From positions 1-64,000 of the IMG/VR virus record IMGVR_UViG_3300042892_003562: a DNA stretch of 64,000 nucleotides; one strand, given 5' to 3'. Positions 27,301 through 57,182 of the stretch are shown one piece after another. The notes under the pieces were generated by a model. It did not search any database and was not told the origin of the DNA. It was given only the letters and a program-made list of their open reading frames with translations. Made by a program: the position numbers and the translations under genes. Numbering within the stretch: position 1 is the stretch's first letter; every line of letters starts with the position of its first letter. This stretch comes from a virus.

Positions 27301-30300
27301 TAACCAATGACCAGCGCCTCCACCATGTGGGACAACTGACTCAACGCGTTCTTCATGTCAACATGCTCAACGTCCACCTTCTTGTCCGCCGCCAGCTTGA
27401 AACCAGCCACCTTGTCACCCGGACGGGCGTTGGCTCGGGCGATCAAAAGCTCCGCGTGACGACCGGAATACTCCTTGGCCACCTGTTCACGGGTGGTTCC
27501 AGAAGGGGTGAACCTCGCTCCACCAAACGCATGGGTCCATGTCCCGTCTTTCCATTCACGGGTGAAGCCCATCCGGTTCTTGGTCTGGGGTTGGGGCGTT
27601 GGTTCGTCGGTGTCGGGAAGAGAGTTGAGGACGACGTCGCGCATCGTGATCTTCTTGCCTTTGCGCTTGGCGGTCTTCTCCGCAGGGGTGAGCTCGCTGT
27701 TGGAATGGTAGCGGTTCTTCAGGTCCTGCTCGGCGTTGATCTGACCCAGCATGATCCACTCACCGTTGTTGATGAGATGGCCGATGATGTCCTTGCGGGC
27801 GGCGAAGTTGGACGGCACCTTGTATTTGGAGACTCGGCGGGCTGCGTTTAGCCGGGCTAAATCAGCCTGAAGACTCTTGATCTTGTTCCGGTTTCCGGCA
27901 ATCGGATGCTTGAACAACTCCTTGTCGGCGAGCTTGGTCTCAATGGCTTTGATCTGGTTGTTGATAACCTCAAGATTACCTCTCAGACCACTCCGGAACT
28001 TCGGATCAACCGACAGCTTCACCAGACGGGTCTTTTCGTTCTGAAGCGAAACCATCTTCTCAAGCATTGGAGCGGCACGCTCTGCCTCGGTCTGACGCTG
28101 GGCCAGCTCGTCCCTCACCTTCATCGCTTCGACCACGTTGCTCGTGGAATAGATGCTGTGGACTCCGGGCTCCGCCAGCAAGGCGATGGCGTCAGGACTC
28201 AGTTGGGAACCCGATCCGGTCACTCCCCCGAAGTTGTTCTTGAACTCGGTCAGACGCGCCTCGGCGATCCTCTCCTGCAACGTGAGCGTGTCGCTCACCT
28301 GACGGATAATCGCCGCTGGGTTATAGTCGTTGAAGTAAGCTTGGTCGCCCTTCACCGCACGGTAGAGCTCGTCGGCATGACGGGCGTATTGACCGAGCGA
28401 CTTGGTCAGAGCCTCTTTCATAATGTAGAACTCGTGGTCCTTCTCTCCTTCCGGCGTGGCGTTCCACTTGGCTGCAAGCTGGGCAAGACCCGCCTCAATC
28501 CCCATCTTGTTCTCGAAGTTGGGGGTGGTTCCGGCAGGGTAGAGGACGATGGTGGCGTTCACCGATTCGGTGCGTCCGGTCGGTCCTTTCTCACCGGAGA
28601 TGAAGACGTGGCGACCCGCCGACCACGGGGTGACCGAGCTGTGGGCGAGACGCTGGAAGAACCCTCCCTTCAATGGATTGCGGTCGATACGGACCAGACC
28701 AGCCAACTCCTTGTTTGCCAGTTCGACATTCTGGCGAGCGACACGCAACTTGTTCATTTCCGACGCATCCAAAACCTTGCCACGCTCCGCGATCTCCATC
28801 TTGAGACTTGACGAAAGCTGCATCTCGTTGAGCAGGGCTCTGGTGTTCTTCTGGCGGTTGGGACGGACCTTGGAATCGTTTTCCAATGAGTCGAACTTCT
28901 CGTTCAATTCCCGAACCAACGTCTTTGCCGCAGCTTCCTTGCCGAACGTGCTGATCTCGCCGATGGTTTGATTGAGCAGCTTCTGGTAACCGCTGCGGTT
29001 GGGCGCGAGCTTGGCCGGAAGGTTCGAACGGTAGATCGCGTCAGCCTCCGACAGCACGTGCTGGAGAATCATCTCACGTTGAGCCTCATCAATAAGGTTG
29101 ATTGACTGCGAGTTGAACAAGTCAGGCGTCGCCGCCATCACGGCTTCAATCCGGTCGACCTCCGATTGGTTGAACGCAATCCGGTCTTCGATAAACGCCT
29201 TCCGGTCCTTCATCGCCTGAAGCTCGCGGCGGGCCTCTGCCTCATGGCCTTCCAGCATTGGAAACACATTTTTCATCTCGGCGTAGACTTCGGGCGTCAA
29301 GGCCATGTCGGCGAAGGCGCGTGGGTAGATGACAAGCTTGTCCTGCCCCTTGCCGTTGTCGACCCAAGCTTGGGTTCCTTGGTCAATGGAACGCTGGGCT
29401 TCCTTGCGGATCACCGACTCAACACCGGAGACACGGGAAAGAAGACCGCCGGAGAACGATTTGAACCGGTTGCTCTCGTGGTGAAGCGTGGACGCGGTGC
29501 GTCCGTTGATCCGTCCTTCCATCATGTTGTGCCATGCGGTGACAACAGGGACTCCCTCACGGCCCTGAAGCCTGCTCTCCTGTGTCCGGCGAAGCCCCTT
29601 GGGGGTGTTCTGTCTGACGACGGGACGCGCCTGCGGACTGGTGGACTCGCTGAGAAGTTGTGTTCCCGGAGTTGGCCGTCTCGAAGCCATCCCCTCCATC
29701 TGGGTTCTGGCGTCAAACCGCATCGACTCATGCTCCTTGGCAAGACCGATCAGGTCGACAAAGAGGTTGATCATCATCGCGTCGCTCGCTGGCAGGCTTT
29801 CTCCGTTCCATGCCGGGTCCTCAAACCCACCACGTCCACGGTGAAACTCCTCCAACACCGCCTCCATCCGCTTGTCCATCACCCCATACTCAGAGATGTC
29901 GTGGTTCTTGTTGCGGAGATACTGGAGGATGCTGGAAACCGACGGCTCGACGGAACGAAGCAACTCCTTGTCCTCGTTCGACGGCTCGATGTCCAACTCG
30001 ACTTCCTGACGTTCGGTGGAGTCGACGCGGCTGGCGAGGAACTTCTCAAGCTCCGACTCCATCCAGCTCTTCTCCACATCGTCAGCCGCCTGCTCTTCGG
30101 CCAGATCCGAATCCTCGTCGGTTTGAGGCGTGGCCTTGGTTTCCATCGCGTTGTCGAAGGCGTATGGGTCCTGTTCCTCCACCGCGTCCTCGCCCATCTG
30201 CTTGTTTGCCAGAAGGATTTCATTGAGGGTGGCGTTGGACAAGTCGCTTGATTTCAATAGGTTGTCTCCGAAAAGGAAGCGGTCCAGAAGCTTCTTCATG

Positions 30301-33300
30301 TTCGGATTGGTCATGGCCTGAGCGACCAGCATCGCGTCGGTGATGATGTTCTGCTGTCCTTTAAGACCCGAGAGATCAGTCTTCCCGTCGAAAGAAGCTG
30401 ACTGAAGTGTATCGGTCGACTCGACAAATCCTTTCTCACCCATCCGGTCAAACAAGTCATCCCTATCAAAAGCACGGACGGTCGAAAGGGTCCCGTTTTT
30501 CATCAATCCTTCTGAACGAGACAGAGCTCCAAGATTCTCCATCGTGGCGAAGTGCTCACGGAGGAGACCAGACAGGATTTCAACTTCCGTTTCCTTGGCC
30601 GCTTCGTCCATCGCCGCCAGTTTTTCGGGGTTCTGTTCAAGCAGCGACATCGAATAGTCACCGAGCATTTTGCTCACTGCATCCGTATTGCCCTTGTGAG
30701 CCCTCATGAAGCGCTCGATGTGGGTTATGGGACTGAGTGCCACACGAATCCTTTCAGCGGCTTCCTGAAGCACGGGGGCGACCAATGCAGCCGACTCTGA
30801 CTGTGTCCCCCACCACGCAAGCGCCTGAGACACCATCGCCTCGTTGTCGGCGGAGTTGGAACCCTCGGCGGCGTAAAGCACCGGAGGGTTGCCGTCGACA
30901 CCGGGAAGGAACCGTGAACCAAAGTAGGCTTGGTTCTTGTCGATTTCGCTCTTGCTCGCCCGGTAGACCAAGACACCCGGAATGTTCTGTGTGAGAAGAT
31001 TGACGGCCTTGTTGGCGGAGACGAAGCCCGTTTCATTGTATTGGGCGAAGACGTTGCCCCGATGGAGGTTGATGGCCTTGTTGCCACGGCTCTCCGACTG
31101 GAGCATGAGCGCGATCTTGTTCGACTCCTCCTGTGAGGCGAAGCCATTGCCCTTGCGCGGAGCGAACAAATCACCCATCCCGAGCTCTGCCATCTTGGAC
31201 GCTGTCGCGGCGAAACTCGTCTTGATTGATTCGGAGTCCTTGGCGAAAACAGCCCCCTGCGCGGACTCGTTGTCGTTCGTCGCGGACAACGCATATCCCA
31301 CCACCGTCCGGATGGCCGTCAACAACTCCTTGTTCGAATCGTTGCCATTGCCGTTCGCCTCCACCACGCGGGCTTGGTCGATGATCTCCATCTCGCTCTT
31401 GGCCTTGAACTCGATCAACGACTCCATCAATTCAAACGGGTTGATCTCAGTGGCAACGCTTTTCCGTGTGTCCGATGGCACAACCCCCATGCGGGTGACC
31501 GTCCGTGTTTTGGTGACGGTGCGCGTGGTGGCTGCGCCGGGAGCGTTCTGGGCGTTGATCCGCGCAGTTTCCTTCTCCCACTTTGCCAGCGCCTCTTGAT
31601 GGATGGCGTCTCCGAACATATCGAAACTACCCTGAACCGGCTTGATTGGAAGAACCTCTTTCGGAATCACCTCATCATCCTCATAGCTTTCCTCCTGCTG
31701 GATTTCCTCGACTCCACGGCTGGAAGCGTAGTTGTGATACATTTCGACCAACGGAGACAGTTCGCTTTCCTTGGTGACGCCGAATAAGCCACGAATAGCC
31801 TTCCGGATGAAAGCATCATAACCTCTCGGATCGTCCTCCAGTGCGACAAGATCGCGGAGGAACTGACGGGGAGCGTCGGCAGCCGACTCGTTCGAAGAAA
31901 GAAGTCCGCCATCCAAGTTTAGCCCGACTAAAAGGGCGGCTTCAGTCAGACGCTTATTCTGAAGCTGGCGCTGAAGGTCGGTGGTCACCTGTGCTCTCTG
32001 TGCTTTTGACCGCCTTGAGTCCTCGCTGGCGCGTCCATCACGGGTCTCCTGCACCGTGCTGCCCTGCGTCCCCATCTGGGAAGCGAGAGGGAAGTTGCCG
32101 GAGTTGTCCTTGTCGGCGATGGCGTAGGCGATGGCCTCGCTCGGGTCCATGTCGACGTGGATCTGCTTGCGGACCACGAGCATCTCGCCGTTGGAATCGA
32201 GCTGGACCTTTGGTTGTCTCACTGGAACCAAGCGTCGCGTCTCAACCCCGTTGACGGCTTCCGTTCTGTAAGTGACTGCCACCGGCATCCCGGCTTGGTA
32301 ATCTGGATGAGACGACGAAACCAGCTCGGTGAACTCCTGACCGTTCTTCCCAACCGACCTCTTCTCAAACATCTCCTCAAACACCACGTCCCCCTTGGAG
32401 TCCCGTTCAAACACAGGGACGTCAGACCAAACCCAGTTCGGACCGCCCACCACCAACTCACCGTCCTCTTTCGAGAACGAGATACGGCGGAACTTCTCGT
32501 AAAGGTCGATGCCGAAAGTGGCGCTGATCGCTGAAGTCCTGCTCTTGGCGAAGTAGTTGATGTTCCACAATCCGTTGTGAAGCGTCGGGTAGTCGATGTG
32601 GCTCTTGCGTGCCTGCTCGAAGAAGTCGGAGTAGGCCACCATTCCGGCGTCACGGCTCGTCTGGGTGACCTCGCGGGTGACGTTCGGACGACTGCGGACA
32701 AACCGCTTCACCGCACCCCGCGCCCAACGGGCCTCGTTGCGAAGTGACCGGACAGACGCATCCAGCACCTGATGGCTCTGAGAGTTGTAAATCGCGCTGA
32801 TGGATTCAGCGAGCGCCTTGCCAGACAAGCCGGAGCTGACGACGTCGAAGTGAAGCTTGAGGAACCGTGCTTCCTGCTCGTTGATCAGTTGGAGGGCCTC
32901 TGTCGCACGCTGATGAATCCGTGACGACAGTCGTCCGGCCAAAGTCTGCATTCCTCCGATATTCCCAAGGATCTTCTTGGGGTCGGTGGACTCCTGAAGC
33001 TTGGTCGCCCAGTTGCGGAGCTTCTGGAAATAATCCGCAAAGGTCTCTTCATCATACTCCGTGGTTGAGGAAATGGTAGCTTGATTGACTCGGGCGGTCT
33101 CCCCGGAATCGTGTTTGATCATCTCCGGAATACCGGCGCTGTCAAAAAACGCCTGACGCGTCATGCTCTTCAAGCGGGTCTTGCCGTTGAGGAAGTCAAT
33201 GAAGTATTTCCCATAAGGGATGTTCGGAAGGATGGACTCCAGCTCCTCGTAGGTGGTGGCGTTGAACTCGTCGTTCTCGATGGGTGGAGTGTTGAATCCA

Positions 33301-36300
33301 AAGCTTCCCTCGTAGCGTTGAGCCAGCTCCTCGTTGACTCCGATCTCGGTCAACATCTTTTGCCACTGCATCTGGTAATTCGTCCCGATTGCGGCCATGT
33401 TGCTGGCGACGTGGCGATTGAGGAGGACGTCTTTGGCCGTGGCATTGCGCTCCAGCGTGAACACCTTGCTCTTGTCATAGGGCTTCTCGACCATCGACAT
33501 GCCGTCGGAGGAAGGAACCATCTCCGGAATGAACGGGACGCCGGGGCGGTCGACATGGTAACGGAGACGGTCCGCTCCGTCCTTGTTCAACACTTGGAAG
33601 ATCGCGGGATAGTAGTTGACCCCGTAGGATGATTCGGAATCGGAAGTCGGCATGATGTCGTCAAGACCCTGTTCCGGGTCAAAGAACAACGGGCGACCGT
33701 CCATCTTCGCCTTCACGTAGGCCTCCATCTCCTCGGCGTCTCTGGCGTCGAACTTGGCGTAGACCAAGCTCTGGAACCGAAGACCGAAGTTGGTGCTGTC
33801 CAAGGACTCGGAACCAAGGACCAAGTCCACCACCCGGCGGTTGGTCTCGTTGTATTGGTCGAGCGCCTGCATGTAGGCGTTGAACTTGACCATCTCCTCC
33901 TCGGCGAAAGGCTTGTTGATCGCCGCCTCCGCCCGCAACCGGCGGGCCTTGAGTAGGGCCTGACTGCCGTCCGAACGGCTTTCACCCGACAAATACATTT
34001 CGATTTCCTTGGCCGTGTTTAGCTTGGCTAAAGACTCCTGCTGCTCATCCGTGAGGTTGGCGCGTCCAATCCGCTCTTGTTGTTCCTCGGTCATCACCGC
34101 CAGCTTGAACGCGGCGAGATCCTCCTGAAGATTCAGGCGCTTGGTGTTTTCGAGGTTGGTTGGCTTTGTGTTTGGGAAGAGGATGGATTGGATTGGAAGC
34201 AAGGCGTTGCTGCCAAGCAACAGGCTCTTCCCTTCCAATAACGCGTCGTCGTCCATTGCCATGTCGGCGGCGTGACGGCGCAAGCCGACGAGCCACGCTT
34301 CAGCCGTGGTGCGGGGAGACTCAACCAAAGGACTCATTCCGGATAATACGTCCAGCCTGTGAACCAAGCGGGCATCATCCATTGCAACCTCGTATCCCAA
34401 AGCATTGGCCGCCTTCGTCGCCTTGATGCTGTCTGAAACCTTGCCCAGATCAATATTCTCCAACGCCTGAAGCATGTCCACGTTGGCGTTGTGGAGGGTG
34501 ATGCGGTCGGCGTTAAACATTGCGGCAAGCTCGTCCTCCTTCTGCTTGATGAAGCGCGAGCCGTTGTCCATCAACGGGGCCGACGCCACGAGCTGGGACC
34601 ACACCTTGAGCTTGTCCGGTTCCGAGCCCTCCTCCAACACCGACAGGAAGTTGGGGGTGTTGGCCCGAGCCCATTCCAGCTGCTGCCACGCGTAACCCAA
34701 GTCCCGTTGAACCAAGGACAACGCACCCTCCTCGTTCAAATCACCCAGAGCCTTGTCCAGATCGTTAAGGTCGGTGCCGGGGTAGTAGCGACCGATCATC
34801 CCGCGAACGTCCAAACCGTCCTTGTCTTCAGACGTCCGGAGACGGATGGCTCCCTGCTTGTAGTCCAACACGATCATGTCGTCCAAAGACATCCCGAGCT
34901 TCCCGGCAATGTCACGGATCTCCACCATCACCTCGTTGTGCTTCATCGCCACCGAGCCGATGGCCTTCTTGGTCATCTCCCTCGACCGCTGGAATCGCTC
35001 CACCGCCTCCTCCAGCCCCTTCTCCTTGATCTGGTCGACGTCGCCGCGCAGGTTGGTCTTCACGTAGGCCGTCTCCTGCTGGCGGATCATCCGGTTCAGC
35101 GAGGTTGGAAGCTGGCCCATCATGTAACGGAGGTGGGCCATCCGCTTGATCTTCTGCATATAGCGCTTGAGAAGCTCCACCACGGTCTTCCACGGGTTGC
35201 TGGTCTCCTTGTTCGAGAAGTCCTCGTTGAGGGCGATGAGCAGGCGCTTGGAGTCGGTGGTTTGTTGTTCGGTGCTGACGCCGCTGGTGAGGATCTGGTT
35301 GAGAGCGCGGAGGGTTTCCGAGGCGACCAAATACTTGTCCGCGTCGTCGAAGTCCTCGATCTTCTTGCCCTTCACCCGTTGGGCGGCAACCCGTTGGAAC
35401 ACGTCGTTGACGAAGCGTTGCCTGACGTTGCCGCCCTTGTCCAAGTCTTCGGACAGCTCCACGAAGTCGGAGAACGAATTGATGATCTCCTCGTCGGTGA
35501 ATTCACTCATCGCCACGAAGTGGGTTTGCTCCTCGTCCACGAACGCCGCGATCTGACGGGCGACTTCGTTGGAGACGAAGGAATCGTAAAGCTCTCCTCG
35601 GGTGGCGTCGTAGCCCTTGAAGATGCTGCGGAGGTTGGCGACGAACGCGTCCTTGTCCAAGTTGATCTTGAGTTGTGACGTTACCGTTTCCTTGGCTTTC
35701 TGTGTTCTTGTTGGCGCAACATATCCATCCACTGGAACTCTTCTTCCGCTCAGCTGAACGTAGTGGGCAACAAGCGTCCTGACCTTCTCTTTTACCTGTG
35801 TGCCATCAGGATTCTTTTTGGCGACACGTATCCCGGTTTCCGGATCAGCATCTTCATACACTGTCCGACTTACCACCTTTTTGATCATGTCGATCAACAG
35901 ATCACCGTTCGCGTCACGCTTGAGGTTGTCATCGAGCTGGGCTTCGTCAAAAGACGTCCCGTTCGATGTCTCGCGGGTGACGTTGAAGAAAAACCCCTTC
36001 TCCATTTTGGCGTCCCAGTTGATCGCCGCCGGGTTGCTGCCGGGAGCCACCACCTGAAGCACGTTCTCGATCATCTTGCGGAAAGCCGCAGGATCAATCG
36101 GTCCCTTCCCAAGAAGGTCCTTCAGCATCGGCTCGATGGCCTTGCCAGCTTCCGTGAGGCGGTTGCGGTTCCAGTTGGAGTTGAGCTTGCCGAGAAGGAC
36201 CGTGTCGTTCTTCCGCATCGCGTCGCCAATCACCTTCACGTCGATCTGGCGGAAGTAGTAGACGCCGTCGGCTTCTTCAGTGAGGACAAGAACGTGGTCA

Positions 36301-39300
36301 GGATCGCCTGCAATCTCAACCACCGCGTTCACCCCGATGGGGAGCGTCTTGCCCTTGGCAGGCTTGTAGTAAATCTGGCTCTTGTCGTCCTTCGACCACA
36401 CCCCGCCAAACTCGTCCTCCACGTCCATTGTTGACAAGTCGACGTAGAACTTCGGCGTGGACGGATCGAGGAACAACGGGTCCTCCTCACCGGGCTTGTC
36501 GTTGGCCGTGTCTGGCTGGGCGTCAAGGACGTTGGTTGGCTTCTCTTTGAACTTGCGAACCGCCTTGCGGACGTCGGCTGCATTCTTGATCTCGGACTCG
36601 GAGATCAACAGGACACGCTGGTTCGCGGGAATTCCGTACTCCTCGCGGGCGGACGTCTCGTCATCCCCGACAACCACCGCCACGCCATCGTCCCACAGCT
36701 CCTGAAGCGCCTCGTCCACCATCGCCGCCTTCTGGTGAGGCTTGCGTCCAAGGACGTCCCTGACGGCGGCTGGAGCTTCCGGAGTTGTTTCTTCGGAAGC
36801 TCCTTCGGTCAGCACATCCCCTTCGTTTTCGGCTTGGGCTTCGTCGTCGGTTTCGGTTTGGTCTTCATCGGGTGGTGTTGGTTTCTTGGTTTCTGCCGCC
36901 GGAGTGGCGGAGGGAGCTTCTTTAGCCGGGCTAAAATCGTCCAACTTTTCAGCTGGCCCAAAAATACCTTCGTAATACTGATTGGCTTGATCCAAAGGAT
37001 CGGAGCTCATCTCAATCGACTCCTCAAAAGCGTTTTCTGGATTATCAAGAGGCACATGAATGATGATAACTTCATCTACTTCGATCCCACTGACCTTGAG
37101 CGCTTCCACGTAGGCCTTCATTTGAACCTTGTGAGACATTGCCTTTGAAGCACGCTTCCGGAAAGGAGCCTTCTTCTCCGTATAGCCATTGTTGTAATTC
37201 TGATAAGAGGCTTCTTCGCTGGCGGTCTTGGTATCCACCAGAATCCACTTGCCGTTGGCCTTCGGGATCAGACCATCCACCATCCCTGCGTATTTTTTTG
37301 TCGCAAACGCACCTTCAGTGACAACTGGCCCGGACGCTCTCTTTTTCAAACCTTTGATAATCTCCTTAACCTTGTCACCAAGTCCGGTGGGCTCGCCCTT
37401 AAATTCTTTCTCTACCTCTGCGTGGAAGGCTGTCCCTTCTTCAGCAGCGAGAGCTCCCGCCGCAGTTGACTTCCGTTGGAAGTGGGGATGCTTCTTCATC
37501 AAGGTGGTGACGGACGGCTTCACGTCCCCGTCCGCCTCGTAAATATGGTTCTCCTCATCGAAGGAAATTCTCTCAGGCTTGAACGCTGAGTCGAAGTCTT
37601 CGTTGCCCGTAGGGGTTCTTTTGACTAGCCCTTTGACAGGTGCCAAAGGCTCTGGGCCTGATGTCGGGACAACTTTGCTAGGACCTGAAGCTTCGCTATC
37701 GACGACTCTTTCGGGGCTTGGAGGATCTCCCACACCTTCTTTGCCGGGAGTGGGGACTTTTGGATTAGCTCCTGAATCTGTTCTGCTTTGGATCGGTCTT
37801 GCATAGTTGGTGGTTTGAGAAGAATCGAAATTGCCGAAGCTCTTGAGCATCCCCTTGCGGATTTTCGCCTCGGAACCGAGAGCCTTCATCGGGCTGATCG
37901 GGTCAGCCGCCTTGAGTTGTGCCGTCGCCTCGGATGGAGACAACACCTTGGTCTCGCCCTTGGAGTTGGTCAGCACCGCGCCCATCGACGTCTCTCCCTT
38001 GACCGCGACGCTCTTCATCGTGAACGTCTCTCCGCCAACCGTGAAGTTGTGCGTGAGGTCGCGCTTCGGATCGCGCATCTCCGGGTTCCACTCCATGTCG
38101 TTTCCGTCCTTGTCCTTCGGTGCCGGACCCAAATGGTCGGTCATTTCCTGAGCATGGACGGTCTTGGGGTCAGGAGGGGTGTTCCTTGCCTTCTCCTGCG
38201 CCTTCTGGGCGCGTTCAACGGGAGTCGTGGCACTTGGCTCCAGACGGCGGGCAAAGCCGCTCACGGCGTGCTGTGAGAGCACCTTGGCCCGCTTCTCCAC
38301 CGGGATGGATTCATCGGCCATGTAGTTGGCCACCGAAACCACCGGAGCTCCGGACGCCGCCTTGATCCCCAGCATCTCCGCAGACGCATCACTGTTGTTT
38401 TCCTTGATGTCCTTCCAGATCACCTCGGCAAACTCCTTGATCTCACGGACGCGGGTGTCCCGGTTCTTCTTGCGGAAGGCTCCAGCCGTCTCAACGACCA
38501 TCCCTCCACTCTCACCCAACCCGCCACCGAACGCACCCATCACGCCCGCCGCCATATACTCACTGAACTTGTCACCGATGTTGTCCCAAACCTCGCCCTT
38601 CCACGTCTTGGAATCGTCGAGCACGGCGAGGAACACGTCGGACAGCGCGGTGTCGAAGGTTTCCTCCATGAACTCGGCACCCATTCCAACCGCAGGGCCG
38701 TAGCCTTTCAGACCGTTGGCGCGGGCGGCGCGGTTGATGGTCTCGCGCAGCGCGGGTGCCAGCGCCTTGCGTAGCTCGGAACCTTCCGCCGCCAATCCCT
38801 CAAGGGTCTCGATAGCCGCCTTCTGAGCGTCTTGAGAAACAGCGCTCTTCATCGCCTTGTTGAACTTGAGATGCTTGAAAATTGACCCGCTGAGCCCGCC
38901 CTCGACACCGCTCATGCCTTTTTCAAGACCCGGAGCAATCCGGTTGAACGCGGCGGTCGCGATGAACGCGGCGGCTCCGTCTGCCAATCCCTTCATTCCC
39001 GCCTGATGATACGCCTCCTCGGCGTCACCGGTCTTGTCAAAAACCTGATTGTAGGTGGAGCCGAAGGACATCCCTCCGGCCTGCAACGCGCCGATGTAGG
39101 CGGAAGGGTCCTTGATCGCCTTGATACCGAAATTCTTCAGCGTGTTCGGAGCAAGCTCGGTCATCGCCTGCTTCATCGCCTTCTCGGAAATCGTGATCTG
39201 CCTGCCCATCGCTGTGGCGGCTCCTGTGCCCTGCAACGCGCCAACTCCCTTGAGTCCGAGACCGCCGCCGATGACACCACCTACAATTCCTCCAACCATC

Positions 39301-40757
39301 TCGCCCGTGTCACCACCGACGGCTTCACCAAGTTCGGAGCCAAGATAACCACCCGCTGTTCCTCCTGCCACAACACCGACACTTTTCGCCCCGGCAACCG
39401 CCACGCCACGGGCCGCGCCAGCCATGGTCAGCCCCTTGATCCCGCCCTTCACCAGTCCGCCAGCTCCAAAGGTGGTCATCATCGACGCAACCTGTCCGGC
39501 CATGTCATAAATCCCCTTGTTGGTGAAATCCATTCCAAGCACCTTGTAGTGCTCCGTGCCGCCCATGCCCTCGAAAGCATTGTCACCCACGCGAGACGAG
39601 TCCGCCGCGTATTGGGTGATGGCGTCGTTACCTCCAAAGAAAGAAGCTCCAAGCAACGCAGCTCCGGCACCCGTCGAACGGTTGGCCGACCAGAACGCGT
39701 TGTTCAACTTGTCGAGCATCCCATACTGGTCCTTGTCGAAAAGCTCCGGGTTCTGCTCGATGAACGAATACATGTCGCCTCCCGGCGCGTCCATGTGCCT
39801 TTGGAACTTGGAGTGGATGTCCTGACGGTCCATGCCAACCAAGTCCTTCACCTCACCACCGACGTAGTTCAGGACAGGCGCAAGAACGCCGCCCTTCTTC
39901 GCGTCAAACGCGAACGCCTCGGCATCAGCAGCCTCAGTGATGAACTGCGAGTCCATCTTGTTCACCGAGTCCCGAAGATTGATCTTCATCATCTTCTTGT
40001 CGGCGGCGGAGATGTCCTGTTCATCAATCGCGGCAAGCAATCCCGGCATGTCGGAAAGCTTCTTGAGGTTGGGAATCTTCCTGCCAGCCACGTCCCAGAT
40101 GTAGGCGTTCTGGTCCATCTTTGCCGGATCAAACTCCTCCATCTGCTTTCTCTGGTCGAAGGCCGAGCGCATCCGCTCGTTGTCCTTGTCCATCCGGGCC
40201 GGTGAGTCAGCGCTCAAACCCTCGTTGTGGTGGTCGACGTAGGCGTCGAAACTCATCTCGGGAGTCTTGCCCTCGATGTCCACCGCCTGAATCTGTTCCT
40301 TCACCTTGTCATAGTCCTTAAACTGGTCGGGCTGCTTCTCTCTCTTCTGGGTGAGGAATCCTGAAAGCCCTTCAGCTTCAACGAGTTTGCCTTCAATCGG
40401 ATCAAACTCCGTGCCGCCAGTCTCGTGACGCGCAGCCACTTCAAGGAAACTCCGGCTGCGATCAAGATAGTCGCGACCATCCGTGGTGTAGTTGCCGGAG
40501 GCGTCAAACAATGGCTTGTCCACTTCCTCGCCAGCAGCGTTCACCCCCTTCACCGTCCGGGTCTTGTCCTGCTCCAACGCTTCCGTCATCTTAACGAACG
40601 CCCGTGGTGCCGCCTTGACACGCTCCTCCACCGACGCGTTGCGCCACTTGTCCGCGCCGACAATCCCCGCAGGGCTGGTGAAGTCATAAGGAACCGGAGC
40701 CGCTGGCTCCAACTCTTCAAATGAACTGGAGCCGTCGAATCCGTAATTGAGTTCCAT
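24297..40757 (-). CDS. Giant polyvalent virion-type protein (5,486 aa) with PD-(D/E)XK domain
   Basis: One uninterrupted frame of 16.5 kb, last gene of the late arm. Residues about 415-510 are a Gly/Ala zipper (VGVVAGGTAGGYLGSELGEA...VGGIVGGVIGGG) that could cross a membrane. Residues about 1060-1250 form a PD-(D/E)XK nuclease: SVTTLMKKHPHF, GTAFHAEVEKE, GMVDGLIPKANGKWILVDTKTA, then HKVQMKAYVEAL. Most of the rest is predicted helix and coiled coil, with a hydrophobic stretch near 5275 (NLVPILLSVGYMLGG). Size, late position after the adaptor and two helical virion-type genes, and mosaic content fit the large polyvalent proteins carried in podovirus particles and injected with DNA. N4-type RNA polymerase motifs were sought and not convincingly found. 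Confidence 0.8.
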   Translation of the reverse strand: MELNYGFDGSSSFEELEPAAPVPYDFTSPAGIVGADKWRNASVEERVKAAPRAFVKMTEALEQDKTRTVKGVNAAGEEVDKPLFDASGNYTTDGRDYLDRSRSFLEVAARHETGGTEFDPIEGKLVEAEGLSGFLTQKREKQPDQFKDYDKVKEQIQAVDIEGKTPEMSFDAYVDHHNEGLSADSPARMDKDNERMRSAFDQRKQMEEFDPAKMDQNAYIWDVAGRKIPNLKKLSDMPGLLAAIDEQDISAADKKMMKINLRDSVNKMDSQFITEAADAEAFAFDAKKGGVLAPVLNYVGGEVKDLVGMDRQDIHSKFQRHMDAPGGDMYSFIEQNPELFDKDQYGMLDKLNNAFWSANRSTGAGAALLGASFFGGNDAITQYAADSSRVGDNAFEGMGGTEHYKVLGMDFTNKGIYDMAGQVASMMTTFGAGGLVKGGIKGLTMAGAARGVAVAGAKSVGVVAGGTAGGYLGSELGEAVGGDTGEMVGGIVGGVIGGGLGLKGVGALQGTGAATAMGRQITISEKAMKQAMTELAPNTLKNFGIKAIKDPSAYIGALQAGGMSFGSTYNQVFDKTGDAEEAYHQAGMKGLADGAAAFIATAAFNRIAPGLEKGMSGVEGGLSGSIFKHLKFNKAMKSAVSQDAQKAAIETLEGLAAEGSELRKALAPALRETINRAARANGLKGYGPAVGMGAEFMEETFDTALSDVFLAVLDDSKTWKGEVWDNIGDKFSEYMAAGVMGAFGGGLGESGGMVVETAGAFRKKNRDTRVREIKEFAEVIWKDIKENNSDASAEMLGIKAASGAPVVSVANYMADESIPVEKRAKVLSQHAVSGFARRLEPSATTPVERAQKAQEKARNTPPDPKTVHAQEMTDHLGPAPKDKDGNDMEWNPEMRDPKRDLTHNFTVGGETFTMKSVAVKGETSMGAVLTNSKGETKVLSPSEATAQLKAADPISPMKALGSEAKIRKGMLKSFGNFDSSQTTNYARPIQSRTDSGANPKVPTPGKEGVGDPPSPERVVDSEASGPSKVVPTSGPEPLAPVKGLVKRTPTGNEDFDSAFKPERISFDEENHIYEADGDVKPSVTTLMKKHPHFQRKSTAAGALAAEEGTAFHAEVEKEFKGEPTGLGDKVKEIIKGLKKRASGPVVTEGAFATKKYAGMVDGLIPKANGKWILVDTKTASEEASYQNYNNGYTEKKAPFRKRASKAMSHKVQMKAYVEALKVSGIEVDEVIIIHVPLDNPENAFEESIEMSSDPLDQANQYYEGIFGPAEKLDDFSPAKEAPSATPAAETKKPTPPDEDQTETDDEAQAENEGDVLTEGASEETTPEAPAAVRDVLGRKPHQKAAMVDEALQELWDDGVAVVVGDDETSAREEYGIPANQRVLLISESEIKNAADVRKAVRKFKEKPTNVLDAQPDTANDKPGEEDPLFLDPSTPKFYVDLSTMDVEDEFGGVWSKDDKSQIYYKPAKGKTLPIGVNAVVEIAGDPDHVLVLTEEADGVYYFRQIDVKVIGDAMRKNDTVLLGKLNSNWNRNRLTEAGKAIEPMLKDLLGKGPIDPAAFRKMIENVLQVVAPGSNPAAINWDAKMEKGFFFNVTRETSNGTSFDEAQLDDNLKRDANGDLLIDMIKKVVSRTVYEDADPETGIRVAKKNPDGTQVKEKVRTLVAHYVQLSGRRVPVDGYVAPTRTQKAKETVTSQLKINLDKDAFVANLRSIFKGYDATRGELYDSFVSNEVARQIAAFVDEEQTHFVAMSEFTDEEIINSFSDFVELSEDLDKGGNVRQRFVNDVFQRVAAQRVKGKKIEDFDDADKYLVASETLRALNQILTSGVSTEQQTTDSKRLLIALNEDFSNKETSNPWKTVVELLKRYMQKIKRMAHLRYMMGQLPTSLNRMIRQQETAYVKTNLRGDVDQIKEKGLEEAVERFQRSREMTKKAIGSVAMKHNEVMVEIRDIAGKLGMSLDDMIVLDYKQGAIRLRTSEDKDGLDVRGMIGRYYPGTDLNDLDKALGDLNEEGALSLVQRDLGYAWQQLEWARANTPNFLSVLEEGSEPDKLKVWSQLVASAPLMDNGSRFIKQKEDELAAMFNADRITLHNANVDMLQALENIDLGKVSDSIKATKAANALGYEVAMDDARLVHRLDVLSGMSPLVESPRTTAEAWLVGLRRHAADMAMDDDALLEGKSLLLGSNALLPIQSILFPNTKPTNLENTKRLNLQEDLAAFKLAVMTEEQQERIGRANLTDEQQESLAKLNTAKEIEMYLSGESRSDGSQALLKARRLRAEAAINKPFAEEEMVKFNAYMQALDQYNETNRRVVDLVLGSESLDSTNFGLRFQSLVYAKFDARDAEEMEAYVKAKMDGRPLFFDPEQGLDDIMPTSDSESSYGVNYYPAIFQVLNKDGADRLRYHVDRPGVPFIPEMVPSSDGMSMVEKPYDKSKVFTLERNATAKDVLLNRHVASNMAAIGTNYQMQWQKMLTEIGVNEELAQRYEGSFGFNTPPIENDEFNATTYEELESILPNIPYGKYFIDFLNGKTRLKSMTRQAFFDSAGIPEMIKHDSGETARVNQATISSTTEYDEETFADYFQKLRNWATKLQESTDPKKILGNIGGMQTLAGRLSSRIHQRATEALQLINEQEARFLKLHFDVVSSGLSGKALAESISAIYNSQSHQVLDASVRSLRNEARWARGAVKRFVRSRPNVTREVTQTSRDAGMVAYSDFFEQARKSHIDYPTLHNGLWNINYFAKSRTSAISATFGIDLYEKFRRISFSKEDGELVVGGPNWVWSDVPVFERDSKGDVVFEEMFEKRSVGKNGQEFTELVSSSHPDYQAGMPVAVTYRTEAVNGVETRRLVPVRQPKVQLDSNGEMLVVRKQIHVDMDPSEAIAYAIADKDNSGNFPLASQMGTQGSTVQETRDGRASEDSRRSKAQRAQVTTDLQRQLQNKRLTEAALLVGLNLDGGLLSSNESAADAPRQFLRDLVALEDDPRGYDAFIRKAIRGLFGVTKESELSPLVEMYHNYASSRGVEEIQQEESYEDDEVIPKEVLPIKPVQGSFDMFGDAIHQEALAKWEKETARINAQNAPGAATTRTVTKTRTVTRMGVVPSDTRKSVATEINPFELMESLIEFKAKSEMEIIDQARVVEANGNGNDSNKELLTAIRTVVGYALSATNDNESAQGAVFAKDSESIKTSFAATASKMAELGMGDLFAPRKGNGFASQEESNKIALMLQSESRGNKAINLHRGNVFAQYNETGFVSANKAVNLLTQNIPGVLVYRASKSEIDKNQAYFGSRFLPGVDGNPPVLYAAEGSNSADNEAMVSQALAWWGTQSESAALVAPVLQEAAERIRVALSPITHIERFMRAHKGNTDAVSKMLGDYSMSLLEQNPEKLAAMDEAAKETEVEILSGLLREHFATMENLGALSRSEGLMKNGTLSTVRAFDRDDLFDRMGEKGFVESTDTLQSASFDGKTDLSGLKGQQNIITDAMLVAQAMTNPNMKKLLDRFLFGDNLLKSSDLSNATLNEILLANKQMGEDAVEEQDPYAFDNAMETKATPQTDEDSDLAEEQAADDVEKSWMESELEKFLASRVDSTERQEVELDIEPSNEDKELLRSVEPSVSSILQYLRNKNHDISEYGVMDKRMEAVLEEFHRGRGGFEDPAWNGESLPASDAMMINLFVDLIGLAKEHESMRFDARTQMEGMASRRPTPGTQLLSESTSPQARPVVRQNTPKGLRRTQESRLQGREGVPVVTAWHNMMEGRINGRTASTLHHESNRFKSFSGGLLSRVSGVESVIRKEAQRSIDQGTQAWVDNGKGQDKLVIYPRAFADMALTPEVYAEMKNVFPMLEGHEAEARRELQAMKDRKAFIEDRIAFNQSEVDRIEAVMAATPDLFNSQSINLIDEAQREMILQHVLSEADAIYRSNLPAKLAPNRSGYQKLLNQTIGEISTFGKEAAAKTLVRELNEKFDSLENDSKVRPNRQKNTRALLNEMQLSSSLKMEIAERGKVLDASEMNKLRVARQNVELANKELAGLVRIDRNPLKGGFFQRLAHSSVTPWSAGRHVFISGEKGPTGRTESVNATIVLYPAGTTPNFENKMGIEAGLAQLAAKWNATPEGEKDHEFYIMKEALTKSLGQYARHADELYRAVKGDQAYFNDYNPAAIIRQVSDTLTLQERIAEARLTEFKNNFGGVTGSGSQLSPDAIALLAEPGVHSIYSTSNVVEAMKVRDELAQRQTEAERAAPMLEKMVSLQNEKTRLVKLSVDPKFRSGLRGNLEVINNQIKAIETKLADKELFKHPIAGNRNKIKSLQADLARLNAARRVSKYKVPSNFAARKDIIGHLINNGEWIMLGQINAEQDLKNRYHSNSELTPAEKTAKRKGKKITMRDVVLNSLPDTDEPTPQPQTKNRMGFTREWKDGTWTHAFGGARFTPSGTTREQVAKEYSGRHAELLIARANARPGDKVAGFKLAADKKVDVEHVDMKNALSQLSHMVEALVIGYDKLSPSTETNQRGLKEDIAKFLEMLGDDSIVQSDNTAQQVRLFELFERMSARIEGEAALQQLLTGLSTNLSTAELTAMKYLNHHDSRVRIRYRKNYLAQLEAMRLHGILQNGFDMNSGRNGWISQLEAEKKVMAKKHLALGNDSLMQSIPYMIASLEGLKRVRTYSVAANFSMWSNDLKKGVKDLSLYRDAQLASHSKVTDGALKKAAGGVKGFFNDDHINVIRDENMVKELYSIIEDIVDSPFVPKGDKEAYAVQQINEAIERLYAKSEESGVMDAAKDYADYIGDKFKGMTDAAEIMMMAMGHDQKEIEDINPSEAFLAGRLHGQARLISTVPLRYAYATDPSAERLSLEVTPYKADPLHEVGFQEMSLLGGPGRTEKRDKNKKTLVFRPVSLNGISAIEGMLDDTLYRLNVTPVYSSLRNIVGSVQQAGPNQAEIVNSLILGEDEQNADKRLQRVALAGIASEFDNEIANDMQHGVTDTAFSESIQFLSSMYIFKALASFQQWWNQSAPSLLGYGAKKLLSGKWNEAGMMFEAMGQIVTSKSFDKNEPGDYNHDAKEFMLRVAPWSSFRGADGMDQVKTNLRNQTRHGVGNVKKYSGKAAKVTQEWQEKALDLTIAKPERWLSRAIFLTELMAELQWMKSRGLIDGEVPSSITEMIKAENKGRFDIPQEAVEAAQTKLNDHMGVSDKAKKSFFFQNKTSSPTWNALMRSIVRFSNHQASTASNMSAMAPTLWQAERHEIGTLNEAGEDIGGQMTDGGKRAHQNAVENLVGTMVQNSLFHALKIRNLVPILLSVGYMLGGDDEDEAMAKAQEKADSLFNTEGEDNAVLGGIKAMTIGKPGQFFQDWKDPDAAAASAYAGLASSMLSEVLPVAPVAGAVLGLFPVASAFKNSITNSVVQEATAKLTGLESAENKWDKDAVNVWEMESSGLKTAMQLTAPTGVLYDLVAGMNLAYDANETGEVSAFDISLYLAQEILFSTREGRQSSKKVLQEAVWANEP
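27847..27861 (-). repeat. 15-bp dispersed element inside the giant gene (1)
   Basis: Symmetric class; in frame it encodes LARLN. Confidence 0.85.
31918..31932 (-). repeat. 15-bp dispersed element inside the giant gene (2), hybrid form
   Basis: TTTAGCCCGACTAAA on the + strand combines halves of the two classes; in frame it encodes LVGLN. Confidence 0.75.
34018..34032 (-). repeat. 15-bp dispersed element inside the giant gene (3), variant
   Basis: TTTAGCTTGGCTAAA on the + strand; in frame it encodes LAKLN. Confidence 0.65.
36921..36935 (-). repeat. 15-bp dispersed element inside the giant gene (4)
   Basis: Symmetric class; encodes FSPAK just after the nuclease domain. Confidence 0.85.
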
Positions 40758-51454: not shown

Positions 51455-53467
51455 TCAATAAACGATCATTAGTTGCCCGGTGGACGTCTTGTAAACATCG
51501 CCAGCAACTAACCCTCCAGATAGTGCAGCGGCGTTGTCGGCGTAGGTAGTGGGGGCGGTGACGAAGTTGAGGACACCCGAAGCCTTGATCTTAACGCGGA
51601 GCGTCTGCGCTGTCGTTCCTGTCTCTGTACCAAACCCCAAAGATCCTCCCGACTTTCCTAAAATCACCGAATCACCGGGAACCGCCCCAGAGAAGGAGCT
51701 TGTAGCTAGCGCGAAAACGAATCGGGACGCTTGGCCGGAATCAGCTCCTGTTCTAATTCTAATGCTAGGGTTTGTTGCGTTTTCAATGGTTTGGGGTGTG
51801 CCCGTGAATGTGTTTCCCGAAGTGGTATAGGCGGATGCGCCGTTTGCCGCTTTATCGAAGTGATACTCCAGCAGGTTTGCCCATGCGAAACTTCCGGCTG
51901 CGTTCCGCACTCCGAAATTGACGACATCGTTACCTCCTGTGATGACGCGCCTCCACATGTGCCCCCAGGTGGCCGCTGATGCAGCCTCGCCGGATGCGGC
52001 GTTTGCCGTGGCCATGCTGTTCGCGGCAGTAAGCGTGGCCGAGTAAACGCCCGATGCGTAGGTATCAATCTTAACTACACTAGATGAGTTCCAAATTGAG
52101 AGGTTCCGACTAATCGTGCTATTTTGCTTTATTGCGGCGCCATTGGTGGTTGAAGTCACTCCGAAGAGGCAGCCGAGAAATGTAGCCTGCTCTCCCCCTA
52201 TTTCCACCGAGAAAGTATCCGCGCCGGGCGTTCCGAAATTTCCGAAATAACATCCGACGCATGTAAAAGCCCTCCCGTCAGTCGTCACAGACTTAATCGA
52301 CCTGCTGCCTGCTGTCTCAAAGTTGCAACCGACAATCGTTGTTGTTCCGCTTTTCTGGTGCAGTATTCCAATGTCTTGGGGGCCTGCAAAATCAGAGGAG
52401 ATAATGGAGCTTCCCGCCCCCCCTGCCATCCAAATACCGACCGTTCCGGTTCCAGCGACAGATCCTGCCGGGCTAGCCATGATTGTAGTGCTGTTCCCTA
52501 TCATTATGCAGCCGTAAAAATTGCCTTGGAAAACAGTTGATCTCAGGGATGAATTTGAAAACTCCTCAAGGTGCGACCCGACGTTGAATGTGCCGAAATA
52601 ACAGCGGTCGATCTCGCAGAAATCCACGCTCGCCCCCGAGCCTTCAGCGCCGCTTTGCAGCGACTCACCGCAAACCACCATGCCGCAGCTCGTCGGGCGG
52701 TATTGGTTCGTTCCGCTGCCGACTGCCGTGATGTCGATGGCTGTCCCCAGTAATGCACGGGGGCGATTGTAGGCGAGCTTGAATGAGTCGTCATCTACGC
52801 GGATCGCCCAATACATGCGCTCGACACTGAGCGGAGCGGGCAGGGTATTTGTGGTGGTGCACATCACCATGTCGCCAGTTGTAAGTCCGTGTGCTGTGGC
52901 TGCGATGACATCGGTGGCGGCTGTCGCGGCGCCGGTCACAGCGGTCTGGAGCGTGGCGGATGGCCCTATCACCCTGATCCCCTCAACCTTAAAGGAATTG
53001 TAGTCGGCTGGCACCATGATAACCGGAAGCCGGTTGGATGTGGTGGTGATTTTGGTGAAGGTTCCGAATGCAGGATTTCCCTCTCCGATCACTTCGGCCC
53101 CTTCCCAATCGAGGGTGATGGCGATGCCAGAAACGAGATAGCTCAGGGCTGGGATATACAGAGGCTTTTTTGCAGCCTTAGCTGCTGCGGTCGCTGCCAC
53201 AAAAGCGGCGGTGTCGTCGGTTATCCCGTCTCCGGTTGCTCCGTATTCAATCACATTGATAACTGGCCGAGCGGTATTTGCCGCAGTGAAATCTCCACTC
53301 GCCGCAGTCGCCGCCGTGCCGAGGCCGAGGGCGGTGCGCGTCGCGGCCGCGTCGTTGTCGAGAACGCCGTTTAGAGTGGCGTTTGTCACACCGTCGAGGG
53401 TGGCGTTGGTCAACTGTCCGCATAACGCGGACGCGGACAGGAGGAGGATGGTTAGGGCGTGTCTCAT
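51455..53467 (-). CDS. Tailspike with pectate-lyase-type beta helix and signal peptide
   Basis: 670 residues. Residues 1-17 (MRHALTILLLSASALCG) form a signal-like sequence. Residues about 68-100 (INVIEYGATGDGITDDTAAFVAATAAAKAAKKPLYIP) are the start of the Pectate_lyase_3 right-handed beta helix, typical of polysaccharide-cleaving tailspikes. Long beta-helix and C-terminal beta domain follow. The leader is unusual because tailspikes assemble in the cytoplasm. Downstream of the fibre genes. Confidence 0.8.
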   Translation of the reverse strand: MRHALTILLLSASALCGQLTNATLDGVTNATLNGVLDNDAAATRTALGLGTAATAASGDFTAANTARPVINVIEYGATGDGITDDTAAFVAATAAAKAAKKPLYIPALSYLVSGIAITLDWEGAEVIGEGNPAFGTFTKITTTSNRLPVIMVPADYNSFKVEGIRVIGPSATLQTAVTGAATAATDVIAATAHGLTTGDMVMCTTTNTLPAPLSVERMYWAIRVDDDSFKLAYNRPRALLGTAIDITAVGSGTNQYRPTSCGMVVCGESLQSGAEGSGASVDFCEIDRCYFGTFNVGSHLEEFSNSSLRSTVFQGNFYGCIMIGNSTTIMASPAGSVAGTGTVGIWMAGGAGSSIISSDFAGPQDIGILHQKSGTTTIVGCNFETAGSRSIKSVTTDGRAFTCVGCYFGNFGTPGADTFSVEIGGEQATFLGCLFGVTSTTNGAAIKQNSTISRNLSIWNSSSVVKIDTYASGVYSATLTAANSMATANAASGEAASAATWGHMWRRVITGGNDVVNFGVRNAAGSFAWANLLEYHFDKAANGASAYTTSGNTFTGTPQTIENATNPSIRIRTGADSGQASRFVFALATSSFSGAVPGDSVILGKSGGSLGFGTETGTTAQTLRVKIKASGVLNFVTAPTTYADNAAALSGGLVAGDVYKTSTGQLMIVY

Positions 53468-54093
53468 GCAGTTGTGATGTCGAGTTTGGAAAGCGCGGTG
53501 TTGTAAAAAAGGCTGCCGATGGCGAGGTCCGTGTTGGCGGTGGTGAGGTTGGCCTTGGTGGGGAGGCCTAGCAGCGTGACGACGGACGCGGCTGTCAGGG
53601 TTGGGATATCGCTCGTCAGCGCGAGCGTGCCGCTGGCGTTCGGAAAGGCGATAGCTTGGTTGGCTGTCGGCGCGTGGGAAAGCGTGGTGGCATGGGTTCC
53701 GTTATCCAGTTTGAATGTCCCACCTGTCTGGATGATGCTGCCAACCCCTAACGTGTAAATCTTGGCTCCGACTCCACTGGCATAAATAACGTTATTATCT
53801 CCAATAACGGAAATCTCGCCGTCCTCGCTCGTCAGTGTTATCGAATCTGTGAACGCTGGGCCAGCCAGCGGGGCCTTGAGGGCGAGCGCGGCGGCGAGCG
53901 CGGTGTTGTCGGCTGGCACGCCGCCGAGGTCCGCGAAGTCGGAGGCTCCGCCAGCAACCACGGGCATCCAGCGAACCTTGGTCGAGTTGAACCACCACTC
54001 CCCACCGTTGACCGAGTCAGTCCAAGGGGCTTCGAGGGTGTAAGTGGTGCGCGAAGGAGTGCTTGCGGCGGTTGGAAAATTGATTGCGGCCAT
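53464..54093 (-). CDS. Tail-fibre protein (209 aa)
   Basis: N-terminal WNGGEWWF-type segment, then a fibre repeat (DNTALAAALALKAPLAGPAFTDSITLTSEDGEISVIG). A beta domain and a C-terminal attachment-like region (ALTSDIPTLTAASVVTLLG...LTTANTDLAIGSLFYNTALSKLD) follow. This layout is common in fibres that trimerise. Overlaps the tailspike gene by 4 nt. Confidence 0.65.
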   Translation of the reverse strand: MAAINFPTAASTPSRTTYTLEAPWTDSVNGGEWWFNSTKVRWMPVVAGGASDFADLGGVPADNTALAAALALKAPLAGPAFTDSITLTSEDGEISVIGDNNVIYASGVGAKIYTLGVGSIIQTGGTFKLDNGTHATTLSHAPTANQAIAFPNASGTLALTSDIPTLTAASVVTLLGLPTKANLTTANTDLAIGSLFYNTALSKLDITTA

Positions 54094-54099
54094 GGCGGG

Positions 54100-55380
54100 T
54101 TAAAGGGTGGGGTCTGCGGCGACGGTGACGGTGTAGCCGGTGGGAGAAACTAGGTTTGCCAGAGTGATGGCGTTAGCGTCGGCTTCCGAGATCATCGCGT
54201 TGAGCAATTCATTTCCGCCTGATCCCATCCATGTGCATGGCCCCGAATTCGCTGTGAACCAGCAGGTGATCAGAACCGGGTCGCCATTAACCACGGCAAA
54301 ACACGGACTCCCTGAATCGCCTCCAACTATGGACACCCACAGCCCCGGCTTTGTGGCAACATAGGGGTGCAGAGCAGCGGCTATGTCTGCGTGCAAAATC
54401 GCGACACTCTGATTCCCTGTGATGGGTATCGCTCCGTATGTCGTTGGTTGCGCTTGCGAATAAGCGGTAATCGGGTCGCCAAAAAGACTCAAACCGACCT
54501 GTCGGTTCTTGTTCAAGGATAGCAACAATCCCCCAGAATAGGACGTGCCATCAACCACTTGCGTGATCCAGTCGTCCGCCACTTTAACGGGGTTGCACCC
54601 TGTTGGCGAAGCATCCAATAAAAGGACTTTCTGATCCCTGAAATTTCCTGACGCTCCGACAACCCTCCTTGTCCTCACTACGCCTCCGGGTGTCACAAAT
54701 CGCACGTAGTCCGCTCTGCCTTGATACGTCGTGTCCGCGGGCGAATAGTGGTTCGCCACGACGATGTGACGCGGAGTGATGAGAGTGCCCGGACGCTGCG
54801 TTGTGTAATAGGAATCCGATCCGTGACTTGTTCCCACTGACAGGCACGACAGGTCAACGGCTCTTGCCCAGCAATTCGCATTCCGCGTGTAGGTGGCGGA
54901 AGCGTGGTTGATCACACCATAATACCCCAATTCTTGTTTCAGTGGGTCGGAATCAATCAGTGTTTCAACTTCTCCCTGCAATGCGGCGGAAACAGTGCCT
55001 GCCGCATACCCCAAAAACTCCCGCTTCGCACCGCTGCTGATCGGCATTCCGTAGCTCAAAACGCTTCGCGCCTCTCCGAGCTGAAACTCGATTTCACCAA
55101 GGCCAACGCCTCCCGCACGGGCCAGTACATAATCTTCACCCAGCGTCGCCACGGATGGAGTTAAGTTTGTGACAGTAGCTCCTAGCATCGGTGTCACTAA
55201 ATAATTCGTCCACGTGTCCGCGCCGCCCGACTCATCGACCTCGGAGTCAAAAAACAACGTCGGTGCTGGCCCGGTCCCACCGGACGACGCCGGGACTTCA
55301 ATAAGTGTCCCAAGCCCATCGGAGGGATAGCTTGCTGTCCTGACCTCCACGGTCGATTCGTTTGACTGGATCAGGATCAT
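54100..55380 (-). CDS. Trypsin-like serine protease in the tail module
   Basis: 426 residues. GTLITPRHIVVANHYSP (about 197-213) is the catalytic-His region (replacing TAAHC), FRDQKVLLLDASPTG (about 248-262) is a candidate Asp region, and WVSIVGGDSGSPCFAVVNGDPVLITCWF (about 348-375) holds the nucleophile Ser in GDSGSP. A roughly 180-residue N-terminal domain precedes. Chymotrypsin-fold proteases are rare in phage particles. It may cut a head or fibre protein, or host surface protein. The triad is only inferred from motifs. Confidence 0.7.
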   Translation of the reverse strand: MILIQSNESTVEVRTASYPSDGLGTLIEVPASSGGTGPAPTLFFDSEVDESGGADTWTNYLVTPMLGATVTNLTPSVATLGEDYVLARAGGVGLGEIEFQLGEARSVLSYGMPISSGAKREFLGYAAGTVSAALQGEVETLIDSDPLKQELGYYGVINHASATYTRNANCWARAVDLSCLSVGTSHGSDSYYTTQRPGTLITPRHIVVANHYSPADTTYQGRADYVRFVTPGGVVRTRRVVGASGNFRDQKVLLLDASPTGCNPVKVADDWITQVVDGTSYSGGLLLSLNKNRQVGLSLFGDPITAYSQAQPTTYGAIPITGNQSVAILHADIAAALHPYVATKPGLWVSIVGGDSGSPCFAVVNGDPVLITCWFTANSGPCTWMGSGGNELLNAMISEADANAITLANLVSPTGYTVTVAADPTL

Positions 55381-56789
55381 CAGAGGTATTTATAGGTCCA
55401 CTTTGCGCTAGCGGAAATAGCACCAACCAAAGCCACGCTGGATTTTTTCACCCAAATCCCAAATTCTAAAACACCCGCAACGCCTATGACGTAAGGATCG
55501 GTGGCAAAATCAAAAACCGCAGCAAGCGATCCAGAGCTTGGACTCCCTGCGGTGGTAGGATAACTGCTGCACACCGCCTTTGAGTCCGATGAGCACGACA
55601 TATCAGCGCCCACTAATGTGGTGAAGTTCAAAATCACCACTCCTTTGTAGGAGTGAGTCCTATTAAGGGACGCGGGCGATACCGGGGCAGGGAAATGCGT
55701 CGAATCTCCCGGAGCTTGTCCGGGGGCTCTGAAATTGAGAGCAAGGTCGGTGAGGTTTGTGAAATTATACAGGTCCGCCACCACGTCAAACGCAACTTGC
55801 AGCTGTGCGCCTTCTACCAAGAACGAGGCGGGCAGCGGTATCTCTCCCAGCTTCAGGAAATAGGTCTGGGCTGCCCCGAAATCGTTAATGAATGCCATCG
55901 CGTGCTGCGATGGGAGCGCCACGTCCTGCATAAGCCGGATACCTCCAGTAGTGGAGTTATTATGCACTACGGCGTTTCCAGCACCGTCTCCGCTCAAACG
56001 ACCGAGAGGTAAAATGACCGCAGAGGAATCTCCAAGGGAGATGCCTGATGTTGGCAGACTTTCCGGCATATACTCCGCGCCGATCCGCGTCGGGTCAGCC
56101 ACTGCTCCTTTAAGCGTGGTGGTGATCTCCGCAGCTGTTGGAAGTCCACCCGTTCCGCCACCTCCCACCACCACCCATGCGTCCACATACCAAACCGAGA
56201 ATCCGCCGGTCTCCGGGTCGAACCAGATCGCGTCTCGGTCGTCAACTCCCGGCGTGGTGGTGGAGGTGATGAGCGGGGTTTCTCCTGTGTCTCCCGTGGG
56301 GCCGGTGGCTCCCGTGAGGCCGGTGGGGCCGGTGTTGCCGGTAGGTCCGGTGGCTCCTGCAGCTCCTGTGGGGCCTGTATAGGGCACCGCCTCGCTCAGC
56401 GTGTGCAGGGGGACGCTCGTCGTCGTCTGGCGCGTCGTGTCGCGCTTCAGGACCAGCGTGCCGTAAGCCACCGTCAGGATGACGCCCGTGGTCTCGTGCT
56501 CCGCTTGGATGTCCCAGTAGAGGGTCTTGCCACCGAGGTCCCGCGTGTCCACCGGATGGAACGTCACGGAGGCGCTGGAACTGACGACAGGATCGACAAT
56601 GCCCACTCCGCTGGCGTATTGGAACTTGGCCCCGAGGTCGCTCGCCGCGTTGGACGCCTTGGCCGTGAAGATGAGCTGGTAGGCCGAGCCGGGGCTGAAC
56701 GCCGCTCCATCCACTTCCGTCTTCAACGGAATGGACACCGTCTTGGTGTCTCCTGCGTAGAACGTGATCTCCTGTGATGTGAGCGCCAT
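55380..56789 (-). CDS. Collagen-like tail fibre (469 aa)
   Basis: The N-terminal 130 residues (LTSQEITFYAGDTKTVSIPLKTEVDGAAF...) match an attachment domain typical of fibres such as BppU. A collagen-like run GPTGAAGATGPTGNTGPTGL (about 140-175) then forms a triple helix, followed by a C-terminal beta domain. The trimeric fibre is likely a receptor-binding or decoration structure. It starts 2 nt after a symmetric 15-bp element. Confidence 0.75.
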   Translation of the reverse strand: MALTSQEITFYAGDTKTVSIPLKTEVDGAAFSPGSAYQLIFTAKASNAASDLGAKFQYASGVGIVDPVVSSSASVTFHPVDTRDLGGKTLYWDIQAEHETTGVILTVAYGTLVLKRDTTRQTTTSVPLHTLSEAVPYTGPTGAAGATGPTGNTGPTGLTGATGPTGDTGETPLITSTTTPGVDDRDAIWFDPETGGFSVWYVDAWVVVGGGGTGGLPTAAEITTTLKGAVADPTRIGAEYMPESLPTSGISLGDSSAVILPLGRLSGDGAGNAVVHNNSTTGGIRLMQDVALPSQHAMAFINDFGAAQTYFLKLGEIPLPASFLVEGAQLQVAFDVVADLYNFTNLTDLALNFRAPGQAPGDSTHFPAPVSPASLNRTHSYKGVVILNFTTLVGADMSCSSDSKAVCSSYPTTAGSPSSGSLAAVFDFATDPYVIGVAGVLEFGIWVKKSSVALVGAISASAKWTYKYL

Positions 56790-56861: not shown

Positions 56862-57182
56862 TTAGTGGCTGACGCGATACCAAGCGTTTCCAATCGCCCG
56901 GTAGGTTCCGGTCGTGGCGTTCGCAACGGTCGACGTGGCGGCTCCGGTAGCCGAAGCTCCGCTGTAGATGACGTCGGGACTCACGGCGGTCACAGTGGCA
57001 ACCGTGGACGTCCCTGCGGCGATCACGGTGAACTCCTTGCGGCGTCCCTTCGAGGAAGGAAGTGTCAAAACGGTGGTGGCTCCTGATGTCAGGAGGGTCA
57101 CTTTACGACTCAAAGTCGCGGCAGCGGTAACAGCCTTGATCTTGTTGTTGTAAGTGAGAAGTGGGAGAATGACTTTTTTCAT
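56862..57182 (-). CDS. Small virion-type protein (106 aa), possible head decoration
   Basis: Start ATG 57180-57182 (MKKVILPLLTYNNKIK). The body is Thr/Ala/Val-rich beta (KVTLLTSGATTVLTLPSSKGRRKEFTVIAAGTSTVATVTAV...). The gene follows the capsid gene and has its own terminators on both sides, as abundant head or decoration proteins often do. No family recognised. Confidence 0.6.
   Translation of the reverse strand: MKKVILPLLTYNNKIKAVTAAATLSRKVTLLTSGATTVLTLPSSKGRRKEFTVIAAGTSTVATVTAVSPDVIYSGASATGAATSTVANATTGTYRAIGNAWYRVSH

Follow-up and report, generated by a model that had tools for sequence, protein, structure and literature searches.

A chymotrypsin-fold serine protease coupled to an exchangeable tail-fibre gene in an uncultivated virus, and its family

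The protease gene and its fibre-gene neighbours

The window, which is the whole stretch of DNA analysed here, corresponds to positions 1-64000 of an uncultivated virus record that is 73,925 bases long. ORF calling placed a 426-aa ORF without a signal peptide at 54100..55380 on the minus strand, and its translation contains LITPRHIVVANHY and GGDSGSPCF. The initial annotation had described a 426-residue protein with GGDSGSPCF and a His-type region, and the ORF was confirmed at exactly these coordinates. Against a family profile built with the window sequence left out (A2, 15 rows), the ORF gave E = 4.6e-38 and was the sole match among 683 ORFs from six-frame translation of the window; the profile matched neither the reversed sequence nor any of 500 shuffled copies. 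The protease signature is not a chance motif. Used alone as the query, the window protein had no match in Pfam, PHROGs, NCBIfam, PDB sequences, catalogued phages or viral_contigs, and in Pfam, PHROGs and NCBIfam it matched neither the prohead protease nor the S74 families. It did not reach the cut-off of Pfam PF00089 (Trypsin), and no match with this domain appeared even at E<=10.

The gene had been placed among fibre genes, and its neighbours bear this out. Upstream, at 55380..56789 (minus), lies a 469-aa fibre or adaptor protein that contains a collagen repeat (Pfam Collagen, 4e-5) and matches PHROG tail-fibre families (8e-8); its stop codon overlaps the protease start codon (TGATG). Downstream are a 209-aa fibre-related ORF (53464..54093, minus) and a 670-aa pectate-lyase-fold spike (51455..53467, minus; PF12708, 9.6e-8), which is 99.8% identical over the aligned DNA in a sister phage, L003. 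The spike starts with MRHALTILLLSASALCGQ, a signal-peptide-like sequence unusual for tail proteins of phages, and similar starts occur in the related viral loci L016, L036 and L090. Elsewhere in the window, 24297-40757 (minus) is occupied by one ORF of 5486 aa.

Comparison with L003, whose capsid is 99% identical, revealed a strain-variable cassette at 53957..56292 (minus) that holds the C-terminal part of the fibre, the protease and the start of the 209-aa ORF. L003 has no protease: in place of the 2.3-kb stretch (about 53957-56292) it has about 14 nt that preserve the frame at either join, and its collagen fibre continues in frame as the C-terminal portion of the 209-aa ORF. L010 is more distant, and no protease copy was found anywhere in its 69.8-kb record. 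Because L003, which shares the capsid and spike, and L010 both lack it, the protease is an exchangeable accessory and not a core enzyme; the virion parts in common do not depend on it for maturation, and a core maturation protease is ruled out. The stretch at 56864-57177 also differs from L003: the window has a 168-aa ORF that overlaps the capsid gene, L003 a 148-aa ORF.

Fold, active site and N-terminal domain

Structure prediction, which the initial annotation had proposed as the check on its trypsin-like assignment, returned a chymotrypsin fold with its double barrel. The AlphaFold2 model, built from a 37-row alignment, had a mean pLDDT of 75 and a pTM of 0.70. Foldseek searches against the PDB at E<=1e-3 matched S1-like proteases, and VIA-align gave Z 14.1 with thrombin (3.6 A over 201 residues, model residues 149-403) and Z 13.7 with chymotrypsin. 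Together with the family profile, these results delimit a protease domain at residues about 147-414 (54139..54942, minus). The triad consists of His211 in ITPRHIVVANHY (54748..54750), Asp249 in RDQKVLLLD (54634..54636) and Ser356 in GGDSGSP (54313..54315), all on the minus strand, and each of the three residues is present in 101/101 aligned family members, the window copy included. With the thrombin match and the invariant triad, the earlier trypsin-like assignment stands, and it is firmly supported, from the model, that 54100-55380 encodes a chymotrypsin-fold serine protease. We infer from the conserved triad and the modelled fold that this endopeptidase is probably catalytically active.

The protein shares with chymotrypsin- and trypsin-like proteases (PA clan, S1-like) the double-barrel fold, the His-Asp-Ser order and the GDSG motif. 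It differs from them in the absence of a Pfam Trypsin match for the window protein, in HY, not HC, after the catalytic His, and in conserved motifs of its own, YxRN...SPWNS...PRH and DQEEKAL. The Asp194-equivalent, D355, is kept in 100/101 members; in classical S1 enzymes, Asp194 accompanies a new N-terminus created by cleavage. A second histidine, H205 of the PRH motif (54766-54768), stands six residues ahead of the catalytic His in 100/101 members; classical trypsins show no obvious equivalent of it. In one relative (L151, 942-2252, minus), GGDSG is degraded to GSGSSANP with the His and Asp kept, and smaller changes in the GGDSG motif were seen in L111, L148 and L152.

In the phylogeny, the branch of the window copy is long (2.67 changes per column), and with this and weak support its position in the tree is not firm. 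Given the long branch and the low-confidence model loops at residues 302-338, the specificity or activity of the window copy may have drifted.

The N-terminal 130 or so residues were modelled as an all-beta domain. A putative Ig-like (Big_2-type) domain is assigned to residues about 20-126 (55003..55323, minus) from the model, the profile and relatives' Pfam matches: Big_2 was matched in 9/37 aligned relatives (best 3.5e-9), and the window's own N-terminal domain had no Pfam Big_2 match. In a profile search, a phage short tail fibre in the PDB was matched at 8.5e-4, and the fold of the N-terminal domain had no strong match, its resemblance to intimin (Z 5.8) being weak. Phage fibres are among the surface proteins in which N-terminal Big_2-type domains occur.

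Distribution of the family and its gene partners

The family was found by a codon-degenerate scan of IMG/VR for [LF][IV][ST]PRHxxxAxHY, which returned 26 contigs, most of them with the same His-motif protein and, where complete, the GDSG motif. Alignment with the window protein showed an invariant His, Asp and Ser and shared motifs (YxRN..CWAxDxDLTxISPWNS, PRHVxFAAHY, DIxIGxLDSDVP and GGDSGNP). An alignment-based search extended the family to related ORFs in at least 182 IMG/VR loci, of which 80 were kept. Assemblies of bacterial genomes added a further 20 loci, most of them from Verrucomicrobia, Planctomycetes, Lentisphaerae, Kiritimatiellae and Patescibacteria. Matches were seen in 52/388 genomes of a Verrucomicrobiota phylum sample (E<=1e-3) and in 1/296 genomes of a Bacteroidota sample (E<=1e-20), two figures that the different thresholds make not directly comparable. 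The window capsid had 0 matches in the 388 Verrucomicrobiota genomes, DNA comparison for host assignment gave short, weak matches only, and no tRNAs were found.

The family is barely detected by Pfam, PHROGs and NCBIfam: Pfam Trypsin was matched in 5/37 relatives, weakly (best 1.4e-5). Only 1 of 50,697 catalogued phage records has a member, MW202510.1, a 41.7-kb circular podovirus in which the protease comes directly after a spike gene, where the structural genes end. An uncharacterised protein of an uncultured Caudovirales phage, A0A6J7XEP5, is a structural match (400 columns, E 7.7e-17, 20% identity) and has no assigned function. The family was likewise unreported in the papers reached by a literature search, the subscription literature lying outside it. 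The fold is already known; neither the family nor its cassette-like use in coupling with fibres appears to have been described in any library or paper covered by the search.

Coupling to an upstream gene is common. In 39 of 57 viral copies, the protease begins within 20 nt of, or overlapping, a co-directional upstream gene, often a fibre; the neighbours include Mtd_N fibres (9/54) and members of collagen, lectin-like, tail-fibre, portal and decoration families. Four phages (L026, L095, L119 and L020) have two protease copies each, which in L095 form fibre-protease units in tandem. In L058, the protease domain is fused behind a tail-sheath-stabiliser-like domain (phrog_227, 3.9e-10, residues 2-217), and its homologue L110 has the same layout. 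This fusion is a direct link to a virion protein and, as judged from sequence, supports a virion location for the L058 relative. In a subset of the viral copies, more than 100 nt separate the protease from its upstream gene, and some of these adjoin sulfotransferase-like or other non-fibre genes, so fibre coupling need not be required of every copy and the uses of the family may be several. In L101, L124 and L130, the upstream gene is about 120 nt away and non-fibre (possibly sulfotransferase-like).

Signal-peptide-like N-termini were called in 9/17 bacterial versus 4/75 viral members (Fisher p = 1.4e-5) by a simple hydrophobicity rule; the starts of a few genes are uncertain, and close relatives do not count as independent. 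Since such N-termini are rare in phage copies and frequent in the bacterial relatives, the phage protein does not take the Sec route and would leave the cell through virion assembly or lysis. The secreted proteases of Planctomycetota, Verrucomicrobiota and Patescibacteria (L046, L049-L051 and L054) belong to the same protease family but differ in that many have signal-peptide-like N-termini, and some are combined with cadherin, fn3 or peptidoglycan-binding domains, a cell-surface setting. This suggests one extracellular protease module, for which cells may use secretion and phages the virion.

Possible roles of the protease

We propose, with a probability of roughly 0.6, that the window encodes an active chymotrypsin-fold endopeptidase with an Ig-like domain that is carried on the virion beside an exchangeable fibre and cuts host surface proteins. 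The protease would be co-translated with the exchangeable tail fibre, carried next to it on the virion, and would cut surface-layer or other exposed host proteins during adsorption. Protein coats would then be opened by the protease as polysaccharide coats are by fibre-borne depolymerases. The fold, the triad, the family, the gene coupling and the accessory nature of the cassette are computed; the virion location, substrate, host and stage of action are what we infer.

The main rival to a virion-displayed enzyme is a protease of fibre maturation or self-processing, which during assembly would cut the fibre it is paired with, or its own Ig domain, with no need to act on the host. The tight coupling, the tandem duplication of fibre-protease pairs and the conservation of D355, with its classical tie to a cleavage-made N-terminus, are all consistent with such processing. 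However, the partner genes are mutually unrelated (mean column identity 6%), so that they have no cleavage site in common; L003 has the shared capsid and 670-aa spike but not the protease; and the tail-sheath-stabiliser-like fusion and the secreted cellular relatives point outwards. We consider fibre processing unlikely. Other phage proteases of structural operons, the prohead proteases and the S74 intramolecular fibre chaperone, belong to different fold families. Of the two roles suggested by the initial annotation, the virion-borne enzyme fits the evidence better and fibre maturation less well, given the sister phage without the protease, the absence of a signal peptide, the tail-protein fusion and the diversity of partner fibres.

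Still less probable is a protease freed at lysis that works unattached, degrading surface proteins on debris to limit virion loss or acting on other cells. The lack of signal peptides in phage copies and the stand-alone copies away from fibres would suit this role, but the fibre coupling, the Ig domain and the structural fusion favour attachment to the virion. A catalytically idle fibre module that retains the protease fold for binding only might account for the strong divergence of the window copy and the rare members with altered GDSG motifs; a triad whole in every aligned member is unexpected for such a module, and we regard it as very improbable.

A protease displayed on the virion would resemble virion-borne depolymerases in that an enzyme domain lies in an exchangeable receptor-binding locus, coupled or fused to fibre parts; its proposed target differs, being protein and not polysaccharide. 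To our knowledge, the known tail-fibre enzymes that breach host coats cut polysaccharide or peptidoglycan. Proteases are nowhere mentioned in a review of the envelope-breaching enzymes of tailed phages (PMC6116005).

We put at about even odds the broader proposal that these proteins form a widespread, undescribed class of virion-displayed chymotrypsin-fold proteases, with fibre-protease cassettes exchanged among uncultivated phages, a good many of which probably infect PVC bacteria, and used for opening host protein coats. If true, proteins would join the list of barriers that phages digest, and the way in which phages meet protein-coated hosts would be explained. Current annotation misses the family, and its profile beside a fibre gene would provide a recognisable module for host-range prediction.
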